From Bacteroidia bacterium (GTDB lineage Bacteria > Bacteroidota > Bacteroidia > Flavobacteriales_D > Crocinitomicaceae), in contig JAUICI010000008.1 of assembly GCA_030427935.1 (NCBI GenBank), forward strand, positions 1-57,122: a DNA stretch of 57,122 nucleotides, written 5' to 3'. Below the pieces are notes generated by a model, which made no database searches, was not told the DNA's origin, and saw only the letters and a program-made list of their open reading frames with translations. Numbering within the stretch: position 1 is the stretch's first letter; each line of letters starts with the position of its first letter. This document shows, in pieces, positions 21,808-28,014 of this stretch. The position numbers and the translations under genes were made by a program.

Positions 21808-24800
21808 TTATTTTATTCGAAGGTCTAATGATAAGTTGGATTGCCTCAAATTAGGCCTTTGTTTTCCTTTTGATAGAAAATAAACCTGATTCGTTACATA
21901 GCTAAGAAGTTCTGAAATGTTTATGGTTCCGTCATTGTCAAGGTCTCCCTGATTCTCTCTTAAACCCTTCAATAAGCAATAAGTAAACAGCCCGTTTTTC
22001 CATTTGTCTCCCTCCATCGAAAACTCTACACCACTGGAGGAGGATAAGATGACGGCTCCATTATTTGTTCGGAGATCACTAAACAGCGCACTCATATAAT
22101 TTGCTTTTTGCTGATAAGCACTTGAATAGGACATCGAATTTGAACCTCTAAAAGTAATGTCTCCATCTTCAATTTTTTCCGTGTTTTGAACGACTTCATC
22201 TTCTTCTAGTTCTCCGGAATGACAAGTATCCATGAAAAGGACTTTGTTTATGGATGCGACTTCTGTTAAAAGGTCTTCTAATTCCTCGAAAGAGATACCA
22301 TTTTTAGCTGGATCTTGAAAGTCCATATTGTGCGTGGCGTAATAGTAATTGAACTGATCATCTAATACGCCATGACCAGCAATAAAGACGATAACAACAT
22401 CTTCTTCCTTAGCCGAAGAAAGGAATTTTTTAATGTCTTGAATTTTTTCTTTGGAGACTTCTTGGTTTGAAAGTAGTAGGTCGTGTATTTTATTAAATTC
22501 TTTTGATTGCGCAAGTTCGATGTAGAAATCTTTCGAATCTTTGGCCGCATATTTTAGGTTATAGGCTTTGTTCGAAAACTCTGAAACACCCAAAGAGACA
22601 ATGTACAAGTCTGGTTTGGTCTTTACATCATAAGTGATTTCATAATAATCTTTTAATCCATAATGATTGTTTTTGCTCGGGCAGATTTCTAGCTTATTCT
22701 TACCCGGTATTAGGGTATAAGTGATTTCCAGTTCATCACCTTTTCGTTTGACTTTTGGTTTGACCGGAACATTATTATTAAAAAAGGCCAAGTCATCTGT
22801 GCTGAATTCCTTGGGAAGCTCACATGTCATTTTAAGCTGCTGATCTTCTACTCGCACCGAATACTGACTTTTATTATTGAATTCGATGAAAGGCAAATTC
22901 AAATCAAATAATTCCCCGGTTTTCTTTTTTCTGGACAAGACTATCTCCTCGTAGAACTTTACGGTCTTGTCTTCAGAATATGGTGATTCTTTTAAAACAA
23001 GATCAGGACGATTAAATTCTAAATCAAAATAGGAGCCCGGGTAAACTTTATCTTTGAAATAAAAAGCCAGTTCTTTGTGGGCCGCATTGGATGAAATGTA
23101 GTAGCCATCATTATTCACGGCTACTGCCCCGTGGTCTTTTAAAGTATAGATTTCAAACACTTTTTCTAGACTCTCGTCGTTTCTAAACAATCGAATAATA
23201 CGATCATCTGCATTAATGGCGATGATTTTCTGATCAGGAGAGATCGCAATTTCATCGGTAATGGAATTGTCTATTTTAGTTTTAAAGATGACCTCTCCAT
23301 TCATTGGGTTGACCACTTGCAATTCTCTTGTATATCCTGCGATTACTGCTTTATTTGGATTCCCAATAAATTTAACCGTAGCTCCTTCTCCGGGCTTCAC
23401 TTTATTTCTTTGAACCACTTTTTTCTTGTCCAGATCATAAAGCCAGTATTCATTTTCTAAGGTTCCAGCAATCAGCATGTTTTCATGAATATCTGCATCG
23501 TTGAGGTCCCAGGGTAATTCTATGGACTTTCCGTTTAAATTCATTCCTTTGGGGTCGCCTGAAACAACGTATTTACCACTATTGTCTACACAGACAATTC
23601 TTTTGTTGTTTTTGTATTTTCCTATTCTGTTTCCATTTTTCAAATCATAGTGATAGATGAAATCACCTTTCATGTAGGCCAAGTAGTTTTCGTTATCTGA
23701 AATCAACAAATTGAAAGGGCGGAAAATGAAGGTATCAATCTTAACCAGAAACAGCATGGAGTTTAGGTCGTAATAGATTTCGTGATCATCGGCTTTAATC
23801 GAAGAAAATTGATAGGTGAGGTCTTCATAATTTTCGTTGAAAGCAGGCAAACTCGTAAAAATCCCCGTTTTTAAATCCCAATGATTGGAATAGTAACCCG
23901 AAAAGGCAATAGTAGAATCCGGGTGAAATTTTAACCATCTTGGGATATCTGACTCTTGTCTTAACAGTTTGTAAGGAACTCTTCTAGAGCTGGTGTCACC
24001 ATAATTGATCAAGTCCAGAATAGTGATGTTCAAGTCGGTTCCAACAACCGCAGCATATCTATCATCTCTAGAAAATTTACATTTCGTGATGAATGGGTGT
24101 GAACTTACAACAGCTTGTTTGATCATAGTTTCGAGTCGGATGATGTCTACATGCCCTTTGTCTTGACCACTAATCATCCATCGACCATCTGAAGACACAT
24201 CCACTTCGGAAACGACATCGTAATTGTCCATGATCTTTTTTGTAGGAGCGGGTAAGGCTCCAAGCGCTTTCATGTCTGGTAGTTGCAATAGCTCTGCTCT
24301 TCCACTACCTAAATGTAAAATCATGAGGCTTCGATCGGGTGAAAACCGGATGCTTTTTACGGGTGTTTCCATATTGTGATTGATATAGGCCTTCCCATCT
24401 TCAACACCTAGAGCTTTAAAGGTTCCGTTATTGTCTCCAGTGAAAAAGAGTTTGGAGTTTGTAGACAATACAGCTTCATTCAGGAAACTGCATTCAATCG
24501 TGTATTCTTTGTGCAGTTTGTTGGAATTCGCGTCATAGATTCTAACTTTTCCATTAGGTGAGGAAGCGATCCAAAAATTATTGTCTCGATCGTAGGAAGC
24601 ATGATATACAGGTGCGCCAAAATAAACACTTTGAATTAGTGTAAACTTCTGAGCATCCCAGACTTTTATTGTGGAATCTTCACTTACGGTAATGAAGCGG
24701 GTTCCAGGTTCGTTAACACTTACGGAGTGAATGGGACCAGTATGAGAATTGAGTGTTTTGATCGGTTTTTTGGAAGCAATATCCCAAATCACAATTTTTT

Positions 24801-24954
24801 GATCAAAGCCAACGGAGATAACTTTATCAGAATTCGCGTTAAAAGCCACATCTGCAATCAATAGATTATTGCCAGAAGGTGGAAGAATTCGCTTTGTTTG
24901 ACTCAATCCAAATAAAGAAATGAATGCAAACAGTATACATAAAATGAGTTTCAT
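21808..24954 (-). CDS. secreted WD40-repeat protein with caspase-family (C14) protease domain
   Basis: A 1048-residue protein from ATG 24954 (signal peptide MKLILCILFAFISLFGLSQ); a second ATG 9 bp upstream is possible. WD40 repeats occupy about residues 25-330 (KIVIWDIASKKPIKTLNSH and IKVWDAQKFTLIQ are typical blades) and further blades reach about 640. After a beta-rich linker, residues ~785-1040 form a caspase/metacaspase-like domain (LYIVSLGVSEF). Catalytic His861 lies in FIAGHG and Cys911 in MDTCHSGE, so the dyad is intact. A Gly-Asp calcium-like loop DLDNDGTINISELLSY lies near the end. It starts 36 bp after the MNIO partner gene. Probably a periplasmic or secreted sensor-protease; the substrate is unknown. 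Confidence 0.93.
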   Translation of the reverse strand: MKLILCILFAFISLFGLSQTKRILPPSGNNLLIADVAFNANSDKVISVGFDQKIVIWDIASKKPIKTLNSHTGPIHSVSVNEPGTRFITVSEDSTIKVWDAQKFTLIQSVYFGAPVYHASYDRDNNFWIASSPNGKVRIYDANSNKLHKEYTIECSFLNEAVLSTNSKLFFTGDNNGTFKALGVEDGKAYINHNMETPVKSIRFSPDRSLMILHLGSGRAELLQLPDMKALGALPAPTKKIMDNYDVVSEVDVSSDGRWMISGQDKGHVDIIRLETMIKQAVVSSHPFITKCKFSRDDRYAAVVGTDLNITILDLINYGDTSSRRVPYKLLRQESDIPRWLKFHPDSTIAFSGYYSNHWDLKTGIFTSLPAFNENYEDLTYQFSSIKADDHEIYYDLNSMLFLVKIDTFIFRPFNLLISDNENYLAYMKGDFIYHYDLKNGNRIGKYKNNKRIVCVDNSGKYVVSGDPKGMNLNGKSIELPWDLNDADIHENMLIAGTLENEYWLYDLDKKKVVQRNKVKPGEGATVKFIGNPNKAVIAGYTRELQVVNPMNGEVIFKTKIDNSITDEIAISPDQKIIAINADDRIIRLFRNDESLEKVFEIYTLKDHGAVAVNNDGYYISSNAAHKELAFYFKDKVYPGSYFDLEFNRPDLVLKESPYSEDKTVKFYEEIVLSRKKKTGELFDLNLPFIEFNNKSQYSVRVEDQQLKMTCELPKEFSTDDLAFFNNNVPVKPKVKRKGDELEITYTLIPGKNKLEICPSKNNHYGLKDYYEITYDVKTKPDLYIVSLGVSEFSNKAYNLKYAAKDSKDFYIELAQSKEFNKIHDLLLSNQEVSKEKIQDIKKFLSSAKEEDVVIVFIAGHGVLDDQFNYYYATHNMDFQDPAKNGISFEELEDLLTEVASINKVLFMDTCHSGELEEDEVVQNTEKIEDGDITFRGSNSMSYSSAYQQKANYMSALFSDLRTNNGAVILSSSSGVEFSMEGDKWKNGLFTYCLLKGLRENQGDLDNDGTINISELLSYVTNQVYFLSKGKQRPNLRQSNLSLDLRIK

Positions 24955-24990
24955 GTAAGTCATGTATTATTCAATATAAAGTAAAGGTAA

Positions 24991-25458
24991 TCAGATTTTT
25001 AGAAAGCGTCGCCACCGAGGTTTTGCATTAATTTTCTCTCCTTCTTGTTTGAGATAATTTCGAATCATGTGGACACGATCTGAAATATGTTCATTTAGCT
25101 TTGTTTCCAGATCTTTTGGCAAATGATTTTCGGCAAAGTTTAAGGCATCGTATTGATGTTTAAAAACACTCAAGCTTAAAGGAAATAGTTTAGCGTATTC
25201 AAAGTAAAATGTTCTCAAATAGCGAGCATCTTTTTCTTCTAATTGTAAGAGTTCTTTAACCACTCCCCACCTTTTTCGTAAAAGAGCTTGTGCGGCTTCT
25301 TCTATTTGTTCAGCTGAGAGTTCTTTAAGTCTGTTTTTGGTTTCAGCACTAATGACCTCCGTATCTAGAAAAAGATTTCTATCGGTTAAAAAGAAATGCC
25401 GTACCTCACTAGAGGTAAGTATTTTGGATAATATATGTTGATATTCCTCTAGACTCAT
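24991..25458 (-). CDS. small helical partner of the DUF692/MNIO enzyme
   Basis: A 155-residue, almost entirely helical, charged protein with no signal peptide and no cysteine. Its ATG overlaps the end of the DUF692 gene by 4 bp (stop and start interlocked), which usually means translational coupling and a protein complex. DUF692/MNIO enzymes typically need a small partner (for example MbnC or TglI) that binds the substrate peptide. I infer this role here from position, size and cytoplasmic character, not from sequence similarity that I can see. The C-terminus is basic (KPRWRRFLKI), which could contact membrane or a partner. Confidence 0.75.
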   Translation of the reverse strand: MSLEEYQHILSKILTSSEVRHFFLTDRNLFLDTEVISAETKNRLKELSAEQIEEAAQALLRKRWGVVKELLQLEEKDARYLRTFYFEYAKLFPLSLSVFKHQYDALNFAENHLPKDLETKLNEHISDRVHMIRNYLKQEGEKINAKPRWRRFLKI

Positions 25459-26285
25459 GAAAACAAGATTTCTTTTGCTCTTTTGGTTTCAGCTCTTAGT
25501 TCTTCCATGGGACCAAATTTGTTGTCTCTTTCCAAAACACTTCCTTTGAGATTTGGACAAAGAGGTTGAATATAGGACATCACTTCCCAAATTTCTTCTT
25601 GGGTAGGATAGGAGTGATTGTCAATGAGAAGGCTTCCTCTTTGGTCGTGCCCAACATAGTGAATTTGAACTACACGATTACAATCAATTTGATTCAACCA
25701 TTCTTTATAATCATACCCATGGTTTTTTGAATTGATGAAAAGGTTTGTAATGTCGAGTAGCATTCCGATTTCTGGGTTTGAGTCGAACAGTTTTCTTAAA
25801 AACTCGGCCTCTGTCATTTCTTGAATCGGGTCGTTCAAAACATAAGTGATGTTTTCTAGAATAAGAGGAGTTTGAATATAGGACTGAACCTTTTCAATGT
25901 TTTTTGTGAATACATCTAGTGCTTCTTGAGAATAGGGTAAGGGCGTTAAGTGACCAATATTTAAACCATGACATTCGGTAAATGCAATATGTTCACTCCA
26001 ATAAGGAGGGTTGATTACTTCCAGAACAGAAGCAATTTTTTCAATATAAGATTCTTTTATGCCTTCTGCACTCCCAAGAGAAAGCCCGATGAAATGGGGA
26101 ATGGCTGTGTATTCAATCAAAAGGTCATGGAGTTCTTCTTTCATATAAGGCGCCTTGCCCATGAAGTGTTCTCCGATAACCTCCACAAAATCTATCTGAG
26201 TATGATCAAAGATGAGTTCGTCTTTAATAGCCCTTCTATAACCTATTCCAGAGCCCAATTTTGGTATGTTTTTGATTTCTTTCAA
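25455..26285 (-). CDS. DUF692 family multinuclear non-heme iron-dependent oxidative enzyme (MNIO)
   Basis: A 276-residue TIM-barrel enzyme of the MbnB/TglH/ChrH group. Family blocks are GSGIGYR (11-17), EVIGEHF (35-41), PHFIGLSLGS (63-72), WSEHIAF (96-102), LTPLPYS (113-119), LENITYVL (143-150), LLDITNLFINSKNHG (176-190), IHYVGH (208-213), DNHSYP (222-227) and LERDN (251-255). They carry the His, Glu, Asp and Asn residues that hold two or three iron ions in this family. Known members oxidise or rearrange cysteine residues of peptides. The only usable start is TTG 26285, because a stop lies upstream and the GSGIGYR block requires it. It sits between a Cys-tailed membrane protein and a coupled partner. 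Substrate is inferred, not shown. Confidence 0.9.
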   Translation of the reverse strand: MKEIKNIPKLGSGIGYRRAIKDELIFDHTQIDFVEVIGEHFMGKAPYMKEELHDLLIEYTAIPHFIGLSLGSAEGIKESYIEKIASVLEVINPPYWSEHIAFTECHGLNIGHLTPLPYSQEALDVFTKNIEKVQSYIQTPLILENITYVLNDPIQEMTEAEFLRKLFDSNPEIGMLLDITNLFINSKNHGYDYKEWLNQIDCNRVVQIHYVGHDQRGSLLIDNHSYPTQEEIWEVMSYIQPLCPNLKGSVLERDNKFGPMEELRAETKRAKEILFS

Positions 26286-26333
26286 TAGAAATGATTCTTG
26301 GAGTCTTCTCTAGAAAAGCATTTAATGGGTGTT

Positions 26334-27305
26334 TTAACCACAACCTCCGCAGCCGCCACATCCACCACCACAAGAGGAGCAACTTGAGCAAGAGGAACAA
26401 GAAGAGCAAGAGCTACAGGAAGAAGCTGCCGCTGCTGCCGCCGCTGCTACTGCCGCCACATAAGCTGTGGTTCCGATTTCAAGTACTTTTGAAGCGTTCA
26501 ATAAGTTGCCGTCAAAAATGAGGTGTTTACTATTCACTGCTGCTTTCATCTCATCTTCATGGGAGCGTATTTCTTTAATTTTGGCTGTTGAATAATACTT
26601 TTCTTCTAGTTTTTTACAATATTTCTTACCAGCAGACGTCAAGCCTTGTTTTTTGAAAGTGCCTAAAAATGAAGGGATGAAAACCGCAAATGCGACAATT
26701 TCAAAAATCAGGAATTGCACATTGGCATAACCTCTTGAAAGCGCAATAATCAGCTTAATTAGACCCGGCAAAGCAATCAAAATTCTCACTGTCCACAGCA
26801 AAGATTTTTGGCTACTTCTATAAGCTTCATCGTACATAAAGCCAGACTCTTCCCAGTCGTACTCATATCGTTGGAAGGCTCTAGAAAATTTTGATTTTAC
26901 AGTTGAAGAATTGCAATAGTCCAAGAAATCTTGGAAGTCATTTTGACCATCTTTGAGCAGTTCATAGACAATACGCTCTACTTCCTTCAGTTTATTCGGG
27001 TCTGGTCTTTTCGAGTTTTCGACCATCTTAATGGCCACTTTTGTTCGGGATGAATTTAAGTTGAGTTCAATGTATCTTTTGGAATACAAATTGAGAACGG
27101 CAAATTCAATCAGCTGGTTATAGTCTTTCGCAATGTAAGTATAAGAATAGCCGTCGATATTGGGTACGTCCATTCTTCTTTTTTTAGGCTGTTTGAATAA
27201 GGGAATTAGCAAGTAAATCACCAAAATCAATGCAGACCAAGCGGCAAAAAGTCCTAAGAAAACAGGGCCTTTAATACTTCCGATAAAATCAATAATCAAA
27301 TACAT
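26334..27305 (-). CDS. TIGR04222-type membrane protein with Ala-rich linker and nine-cysteine C-terminal tail
   Basis: A 323-residue protein. One membrane helix lies near residues 14-36 followed by basic PLFKQPKKRR. A soluble domain spans about 45-165. Two more helices lie at about 170-190 and 195-216, followed by the KKQGLTSAGKKYCKKLEEKYY block typical of TIGR04222 proteins. By the positive-inside rule the tail should be cytoplasmic. After an eight-Ala run (287-294), the last 29 residues are six consecutive SSC triplets, then GGGC, GGC, GGC and G, giving nine Cys. This looks like a RiPP-core-like or metal-binding tail. The adjacent MNIO enzyme makes modification of these cysteines the obvious hypothesis. 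Its ATG is 1 bp from the upstream gene. Confidence 0.88.
   Translation of the reverse strand: MYLIIDFIGSIKGPVFLGLFAAWSALILVIYLLIPLFKQPKKRRMDVPNIDGYSYTYIAKDYNQLIEFAVLNLYSKRYIELNLNSSRTKVAIKMVENSKRPDPNKLKEVERIVYELLKDGQNDFQDFLDYCNSSTVKSKFSRAFQRYEYDWEESGFMYDEAYRSSQKSLLWTVRILIALPGLIKLIIALSRGYANVQFLIFEIVAFAVFIPSFLGTFKKQGLTSAGKKYCKKLEEKYYSTAKIKEIRSHEDEMKAAVNSKHLIFDGNLLNASKVLEIGTTAYVAAVAAAAAAAASSCSSCSSCSSCSSCSSCGGGCGGCGGCG
26337..26423 (-). repeat. tandem SSC/GGC-encoding repeat (Cys tail)
   Basis: Twenty-nine codons at the 3' end of the membrane-protein gene encode six SSC units followed by GGGC-GGC-GGC-G. Ser, Cys and Gly codons vary (TCT, TCC, AGT, TCA, AGC; TGT, TGC), so the pattern is kept at protein level and is not a young DNA repeat expansion. 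Both triplet blocks keep Cys at every third residue except for one extra Gly at the junction. Confidence 0.85.
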
Positions 27306-27306
27306 A

Positions 27307-28014
27307 TTAATGGCTGTCGATTAGATGGATTAGTTCGTTCAAAGTGCCTCTATATTTGTGAAACAGTTCTAAAAAAGCTTCGTCGTTCAGGTTGACTTCA
27401 TTTTGATTCCATTTCATCAAGGTTTTAACAGAATCAAGGTTGATGTTTAAATCCGAAGAAATCAAGCTTATAATTTCATCATAATTTGTTACGATCTTCT
27501 CCTTTTTCAGCATGATGATTACCTCAAGATTGTTCATTAAAGGATAGATTGTTTTGCGCGTTTCCATTCTCACATGCCCTAGATCGCCTCCCTTTTTCAC
27601 AAAATTGAATCTCAATCTTAAGGCCATGTTTCGCAACTCTTGTTCGCATCTTAACCTCAAATTTTCCTGATGAACTTCAACTTTGTCAAATGGATCAGAA
27701 CCAACCAGTACTTTATGATTTTGAGAAATATCTAAAAATTTAATTGGATATACGTCCGCTGATTTTTGGAGTTCATCCATGGTTAAAATGAATGGAAGAA
27801 TCTCGCTATCGGTTTCTTTTTCAATGAGCTCACTTAGTCCATCTAAAACTTGCGCCTCAACCTTGTCAAAAATGAAGAGCAGACTAAAACTAGCTTCATT
27901 AAAGTCCTTAATTCGAAGATGTTTACCGTATAGTAATAAGCTCTGCGTATTTTCTGCAATAGAGGATTCTTTGAGCTTATTAACAAAAGCCTCTAGTTTG
28001 TTTTCGTAGTTCAT
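27307..28014 (-). CDS. nucleotidyltransferase-like protein heading the MNIO operon, unknown function
   Basis: A 235-residue soluble protein. The N-terminal part (SLLLYGKHL, then SLLFIF and LPFILTMDEL) has the strand-turn pattern of MNT-type nucleotidyltransferase folds, but the GSx...DxD catalytic signature is not complete, so activity is doubtful. The C-terminal ~110 residues are helical with Arg/Glu-rich segments, compatible with a HEPN-like or four-helix domain. It begins the minus-strand operon and ends 1 bp before the Cys-tailed membrane protein, implying coupling. The fold guess is weak; the gene itself is secure. Confidence 0.7.
   Translation of the reverse strand: MNYENKLEAFVNKLKESSIAENTQSLLLYGKHLRIKDFNEASFSLLFIFDKVEAQVLDGLSELIEKETDSEILPFILTMDELQKSADVYPIKFLDISQNHKVLVGSDPFDKVEVHQENLRLRCEQELRNMALRLRFNFVKKGGDLGHVRMETRKTIYPLMNNLEVIIMLKKEKIVTNYDEIISLISSDLNINLDSVKTLMKWNQNEVNLNDEAFLELFHKYRGTLNELIHLIDSH

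Follow-up and report, generated by a model that had tools for sequence, protein, structure and literature searches.

We found three adjacent genes in the stretch of Crocinitomicaceae DNA analysed here (the window; 57,122 nucleotides) that appear to form a modification unit, in which an MNIO (DUF692) enzyme and a small partner would oxidise the cysteines of a cytosol-facing membrane-protein tail; going by the sequences, we give this reading a probability of roughly 0.6. The three genes lie within a five-gene row on the minus strand, running from 28.0 to 21.8 kb in the order 235-aa gene, membrane protein, MNIO, 155-aa partner and WD40-caspase, with spacings of 1, 48, -4 and 27 bp from 5' to 3'. 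The transcription unit probably starts with the 235-aa gene (27307-28014), which lies 1 bp upstream of the membrane-protein gene (26334-27305). A sequence-only reading had described the three middle genes, and its description proved accurate residue by residue. In favor of a modification unit are the complete MNIO ligands, the 4-bp couplings, a tail conserved over its body, Actinomycete triads and a cross-phylum partner match; against it are a Cys-less TIGR04222 protein beside an MNIO in Streptomyces BHT-5-2, the separate MNIO branch, and an SSC rather than an EGKCG context. This class of cluster was already proposed in 2025 (PMC12452194), and the cluster in the window is a rare Bacteroidota addition to it.

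The proposed substrate is a membrane protein of 323 aa. As had been claimed, it has three TM helices and ends, after an eight-Ala run (residues 287-294; 26424-26447), in a tail of six SSC triplets followed by GGGC, GGC, GGC and G (6xSSC+GGGCGGCGGCG). This tail, the proposed modification site, spans residues 295-323 (26337-26423), is predicted to be disordered and reads SSCSSCSSCSSCSSCSSCGGGCGGCGGCG. Nine of its 29 residues are Cys (positions 297, 300, 303, 306, 309, 312, 316, 319 and 322); in the 18 other ORFs of the window, Cys makes up 0.7% of residues (probability of at least 9 in 29 about 4e-13) and reaches at most 4 per 29-aa stretch. Across 296 Bacteroidota genomes searched with a pattern for five triplets of two small residues and Cys, the one in the window was the only genuine long ORF to match; the remaining matches inspected were low-complexity stretches within short non-gene frames.

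Aligned with that of a congener, Crocinitomicaceae MAG HKST-UBA68 (G542), the tail is identical at 25 of 26 residues (96%), with synonymous differences in 20 of the 26 codons, and the body of the protein is 59% identical (168/286); dS was saturated in most gene pairs. Hence, the tail is under strong protein-level constraint, and the claim that it is selected as protein holds, with the tail more conserved than the body despite the synonymous changes. A DNA-level repeat artefact was rejected, since the codons vary against the congener. The congener tail has five SSC triplets and the window tail six; hence, tail length can vary. Ser/Gly-rich tails are common in the DUF2207_C family, and the window tail probably arose from one of this type by gain of regularly spaced Cys.

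The MNIO (276 aa; 25455-26285) matches PF05114 (MbnB_TglH_ChrH) with 244.8 bits (cut-off 25; E 1.2e-72), and starts with TTG in the window and with ATG in the congener. TglH binds its iron through His71, His107, Glu151, Asp184, Asn187, His216, Asp229, His231 and Glu258 (PMC10880893). All nine positions are present in the window enzyme, as H64, H99, E144, D178, N181, H209, D222 and H224 by alignment with TglH and E252 via 3bww, so that the enzyme is complete, as had been reported, and adjoins the Cys-tailed protein. No second MNIO was found in this genome. Among equivalog models, BufB fits the enzyme best, at 200 bits, under the cut-off of 310. In a tree of 45 MNIOs, the window and congener enzymes form a deep separate branch whose exact place is weakly supported; this branch stands apart from a well-supported Bacteroidota group, whose enzymes are associated with precursors of the EGKCG type, and also from the Actinomycete MNIOs linked to TIGR04222. 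Viral contigs searched with the window MNIO held no relative.

The gene for the 155-aa partner (24991-25458) directly follows the MNIO gene and overlaps it by 4 bp, as the coordinates confirm. The protein has no DUF2063 signature and its model is all-helical (pLDDT 69); a fold search with this model gave no reliable match, and NGO1945, TglI and MbnC were absent among the matches listed. Comparing the partner profile with the post-MNIO genes of Nonomuraea and Streptomyces, we found an alignment of 63 columns (hhalign p 0.0034, probability 9.5%, two sequences per profile), and the proteins have a basic Trp-containing end in common. These sequence similarities are suggestive of homology between the window partner and the partner-like genes. 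The 155-aa protein is thus probably a PME-type 2 protein, and the earlier proposal that it is the partner of the DUF692 enzyme is plausible from its position, the profile match and the all-helical model.

The congener retains the block, with identities of 73% for the MNIO, 46% for the partner and 57% for the 235-aa protein. Between the first membrane protein (A) and the MNIO it carries an extra membrane protein (B), 26% identical to that of the window, with the tail VDSCSSCDSCSCSE. A diverged body with a retained Cys tail is what a substrate tail predicts. Two 4-bp overlaps are found in the congener, one between MNIO and partner, as in the window, and one between membrane protein B and MNIO. 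Synteny between window and congener runs on into unrelated flanking genes; hence, linkage in the congener alone is not evidence for function. The predicted linkage of DUF692 and membrane protein in relatives is nevertheless found, in the congener and again in Actinomycetota. The protein in the window has a very regular tail, and the sister species adds another candidate substrate whose body has diverged.

For the insertion we draw on the sequence, and for the modification on the enzyme family. Gene content, coupling, conservation and ligand residues come from direct observation, whereas complex formation, modification, its chemistry and the metal are inferred. The membrane protein would insert with its N-terminus out, leaving the large loop and the C-terminus on the cytoplasmic side. 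The partner would bind it, probably via the region before the tail, and bring the disordered Cys tail to the MNIO; with Fe and O2, the enzyme would oxidise several of the tail's nine Cys. The likeliest product is of the 5-thiooxazole type, as from related MNIOs. Formation of a 5-thiooxazole entails a loss of 4 Da per Cys. With a partner, MNIOs convert Cys to 5-thiooxazole groups, and peptides modified in this way bind copper (PMC13097082). By analogy, the modified tail may serve as a membrane-tethered ligand that chelates copper, or some other soft metal, on the cytosolic side.

An unlikely alternative is that the Cys tail is an unmodified thiol-rich tail for metal binding or redox, with the MNIO and partner acting elsewhere, for instance on an unannotated peptide or a different protein. 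TIGR04222 proteins often occur without an MNIO, an MNIO is seen beside a Cys-less TIGR04222 protein, and Cys-rich tails can bind metals unaided. However, the genes are coupled, no other Cys-rich gene was seen among the cluster ORFs, and the congener cluster has two Cys-tailed proteins and no further candidate.

We found the membrane protein matches TIGR04222 at 44.4 bits, just above the curated cut-off of 43, and DUF2207_C (PF20990) at 40.0 bits, above the curated cut-off of 33. The congener proteins A and B score 40.5 and 25.0 against TIGR04222, both under the cut-off of 43. Hydropathy gives three clear TM helices, TM1 at residues 16-34 (27204-27260; followed by KQPKKRR), TM2 at 169-187 (26745-26801) and TM3 at 196-214 (26664-26720). 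In an AlphaFold2 model of modest confidence, the region between TM1 and TM2 is a helix-rich domain that includes a beta hairpin; further on, a marginally hydrophobic helix at 269-294 ends in the eight-Ala run and leads into a disordered tail. The intervening domain (residues 50-165; 26811-27158) may be winged-helix-like in this model, with which a fold search returned no reliable match.

In full DUF2207 proteins from the same class (L059-L063), a signal-peptide-like N-terminus leads into an outer domain, followed by the matching helices and a tail rich in Ser and Gly. The window protein resembles DUF2207 membrane proteins in membrane topology, middle domain and Ser/Gly-rich C-terminal tail; in contrast, it lacks their signal peptide and extracytoplasmic N-domain, TM1 starting at residue 16, and the DUF2207 tails examined lack its spaced Cys. 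Hence, the membrane protein is a relative of DUF2207 and not a full member. By eye, two of the DUF2207 genes with Ser/Gly tails (L059 and L060) lie directly after a LemA-like gene.

The side of the membrane on which the tail lies matters for the question of whether MNIO products could function intracellularly. The K+R count close to the membrane rises from 1 ahead of TM1 to 7 in the large loop, drops to 1 in the short loop and reaches 9 beyond TM3, an out/in/out/in pattern, and the 9 K/R after TM3 fall within 20 residues. The charges point the same way in the congener and in those Actinomycete proteins whose three helices are clear. In full DUF2207 proteins, the signal peptide puts the N-terminal domain outside; hence, the chain crosses inward at TM1 and its tail comes to lie in the cytoplasm. 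Corroborating this, DUF2207 is predicted by Protter to have an extracellular N-terminus and an intracellular Gly/Ser-rich C-terminus (PMC10457818). This bridge to a signal-peptide-anchored topology gives a direct argument on the side of the tail. We consider a cytoplasmic tail likely from these sequence features, so that the earlier claim stands on the charge pattern together with the homology to signal-peptide-bearing DUF2207, with the marginal segment at residues 274-294 as the caveat.

In comparison, TIGR04222 tails have been placed in the periplasm by an AlphaFold-based topology (Antoine et al. 2025, PMC12452194). For the window this would mean that the tail is modified in the cytoplasm and then lies outside, via a helix at 274-294 or an inverted topology, to give a tethered periplasmic chelator, which we think improbable. 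Residues 274-294 are Ala-rich and marginally hydrophobic, with 274-292 passing the hydropathy threshold in both the window (1.61) and the congener (1.82), and they could in principle form a fourth membrane span that turns the tail outward; the published topology of other TIGR04222 proteins and the Sec signal peptides of bufferins (PMC12452194) also point outward. However, hydropathy shows nothing of this kind in the Nonomuraea and Tsukamurella proteins or in protein B of the congener, the positive-inside counts disagree, and the DUF2207 relatives anchored by a signal peptide end inside. A rough insertion cost is also positive for the Ala-rich segment (+3.3 in the window and +1.7 in the congener), a weak argument since TM2 and TM3 are positive on the same scale too. 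Our preferred location is therefore the cytoplasmic one. More tentatively, and at a little under even odds, we suggest that the MNIO modifies the membrane-protein tail in place, giving a thiooxazole-type ligand or sensor that faces the cytosol rather than a secreted peptide, and that the periplasmic assignment for the TIGR04222 class is wrong. Challenging the published idea of tail location is the main value of the window cluster.

The system is confined to this genus in the sampled Bacteroidota genomes. Of 200 genomes in the family, two encode the membrane protein, and these are also the ones that carry this MNIO; in a contig scan with a two-sequence MNIO alignment the congener alone matched. 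In comparison, any MNIO was found in 20 of 296 genomes of the phylum and 17 of 249 of the order; the Cys-rich genes seen near those MNIOs encode secreted or soluble precursors (e.g. EGKCG-type and ...CGMG peptides), with no TIGR04222-like membrane protein among those near the sampled Bacteroidota MNIOs. A TIGR04222 family search of 295 genomes of the class gave no match but missed the window's own copy too, so it is uninformative on absence. Plasmids searched with the membrane protein and the 235-aa protein gave no match, and plasmids searched with the Tsukamurella and Nonomuraea TIGR04222 proteins returned only themselves.

Antoine et al. (2025, PMC12452194) proposed that MNIOs assisted by PME-type 2 proteins act on TIGR04222 membrane proteins, mostly in Actinomycetota. 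In that paper, more than a quarter of the TIGR04222 family has no C-proximal Cys, and many members have no Cys or no MNIO. What we state on Actinomycetota tails is based on three records from the plasmid collection and that published survey. In Nonomuraea gerenzanensis, two Cys-tailed TIGR04222 proteins are followed by an MNIO and a partner-like gene, and in Tsukamurella two tandem Cys-tailed copies are followed by an MNIO and a 61-aa gene. The sequence-only reading had named Cys-less tails beside intact DUF692 genes as evidence against it; a partial counter-example of this type is present in Streptomyces sp. BHT-5-2, where a TIGR04222 protein without a Cys tail (L055:5463-6269) adjoins an MNIO and a partner-like gene. 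The cluster in the window shares with the published ones the Cys in a Ser/Gly-rich C-terminus, the MNIO and a small partner without a DUF2063 signature. It differs in its Bacteroidota host, its regular SSC triplets, its closeness to DUF2207_C, its 235-aa first gene and a tail that we read as cytoplasmic rather than periplasmic.

Among characterized systems, TglHI and MbnBC resemble the cluster in the window in pairing an MNIO with a recognition partner and in the conserved iron ligands; however, their substrates are peptides, and the window partner has no detectable sequence relation to theirs. Bufferins, oxazolin and fontiphorin (captophorins; 5-thiooxazole peptides made by an MNIO with PME-type 1) likewise combine an MNIO, a partner and spaced Cys. 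In contrast, their precursors have Sec signal peptides and their partners are DUF2063 proteins, whereas the candidate substrate of the window is a three-helix membrane protein; neither a Cys precursor with a signal peptide nor DUF2063 was seen among the cluster ORFs and profile matches, which separates the cluster from bufferins and oxazolin. The SSC context of the window tail also differs from the EGKCG motif of the known 5-thiooxazole substrates.

The flanking genes of the row are less readily tied to the system. Among the 200 family genomes, the 235-aa gene is present in two, those with the system; its product had nothing above cut-off in Pfam and NCBIfam, shares a 34-residue stretch with CpcN (8imn_5; E 1.2e-6), and by eye may be nucleotidyltransferase-like. 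The WD40-caspase gene (1051 aa; 21808-24963), with PF00400 and PF00656, follows the partner gene after 27 bp and occupies this position in the congener too; its membership in the system is doubtful given the general synteny. That the locus belongs to a broader stress or defence response, with the 235-aa and WD40-caspase proteins as effectors and the membrane protein as sensor, would be in keeping with the tight same-strand spacing in both species, the weak match of the caspase protein to the PADLOC caspase model and the confinement of the 235-aa gene to the two genomes, but is very unlikely, since synteny with the congener reaches well past the cluster and does not single out these two genes, neither was seen in the Actinomycete clusters examined, and the core genes have no PADLOC match. 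An anti-phage system was rejected on the same absence of a PADLOC match for the core genes.

As to annotation, the 643-aa TIGR04222 protein on plasmid 20 of Tsukamurella tyrosinosolvens (L051:4055-5983; WP_068741933.1) reads as two tandem copies. Its middle, rich in Arg as annotated, corresponds to the Cys/Gly/Ser tail of the first copy, which lies in a different frame and there reads SSCGSSFTCGGSSCSGGGSSCGGGGGCGGGGGCGG.
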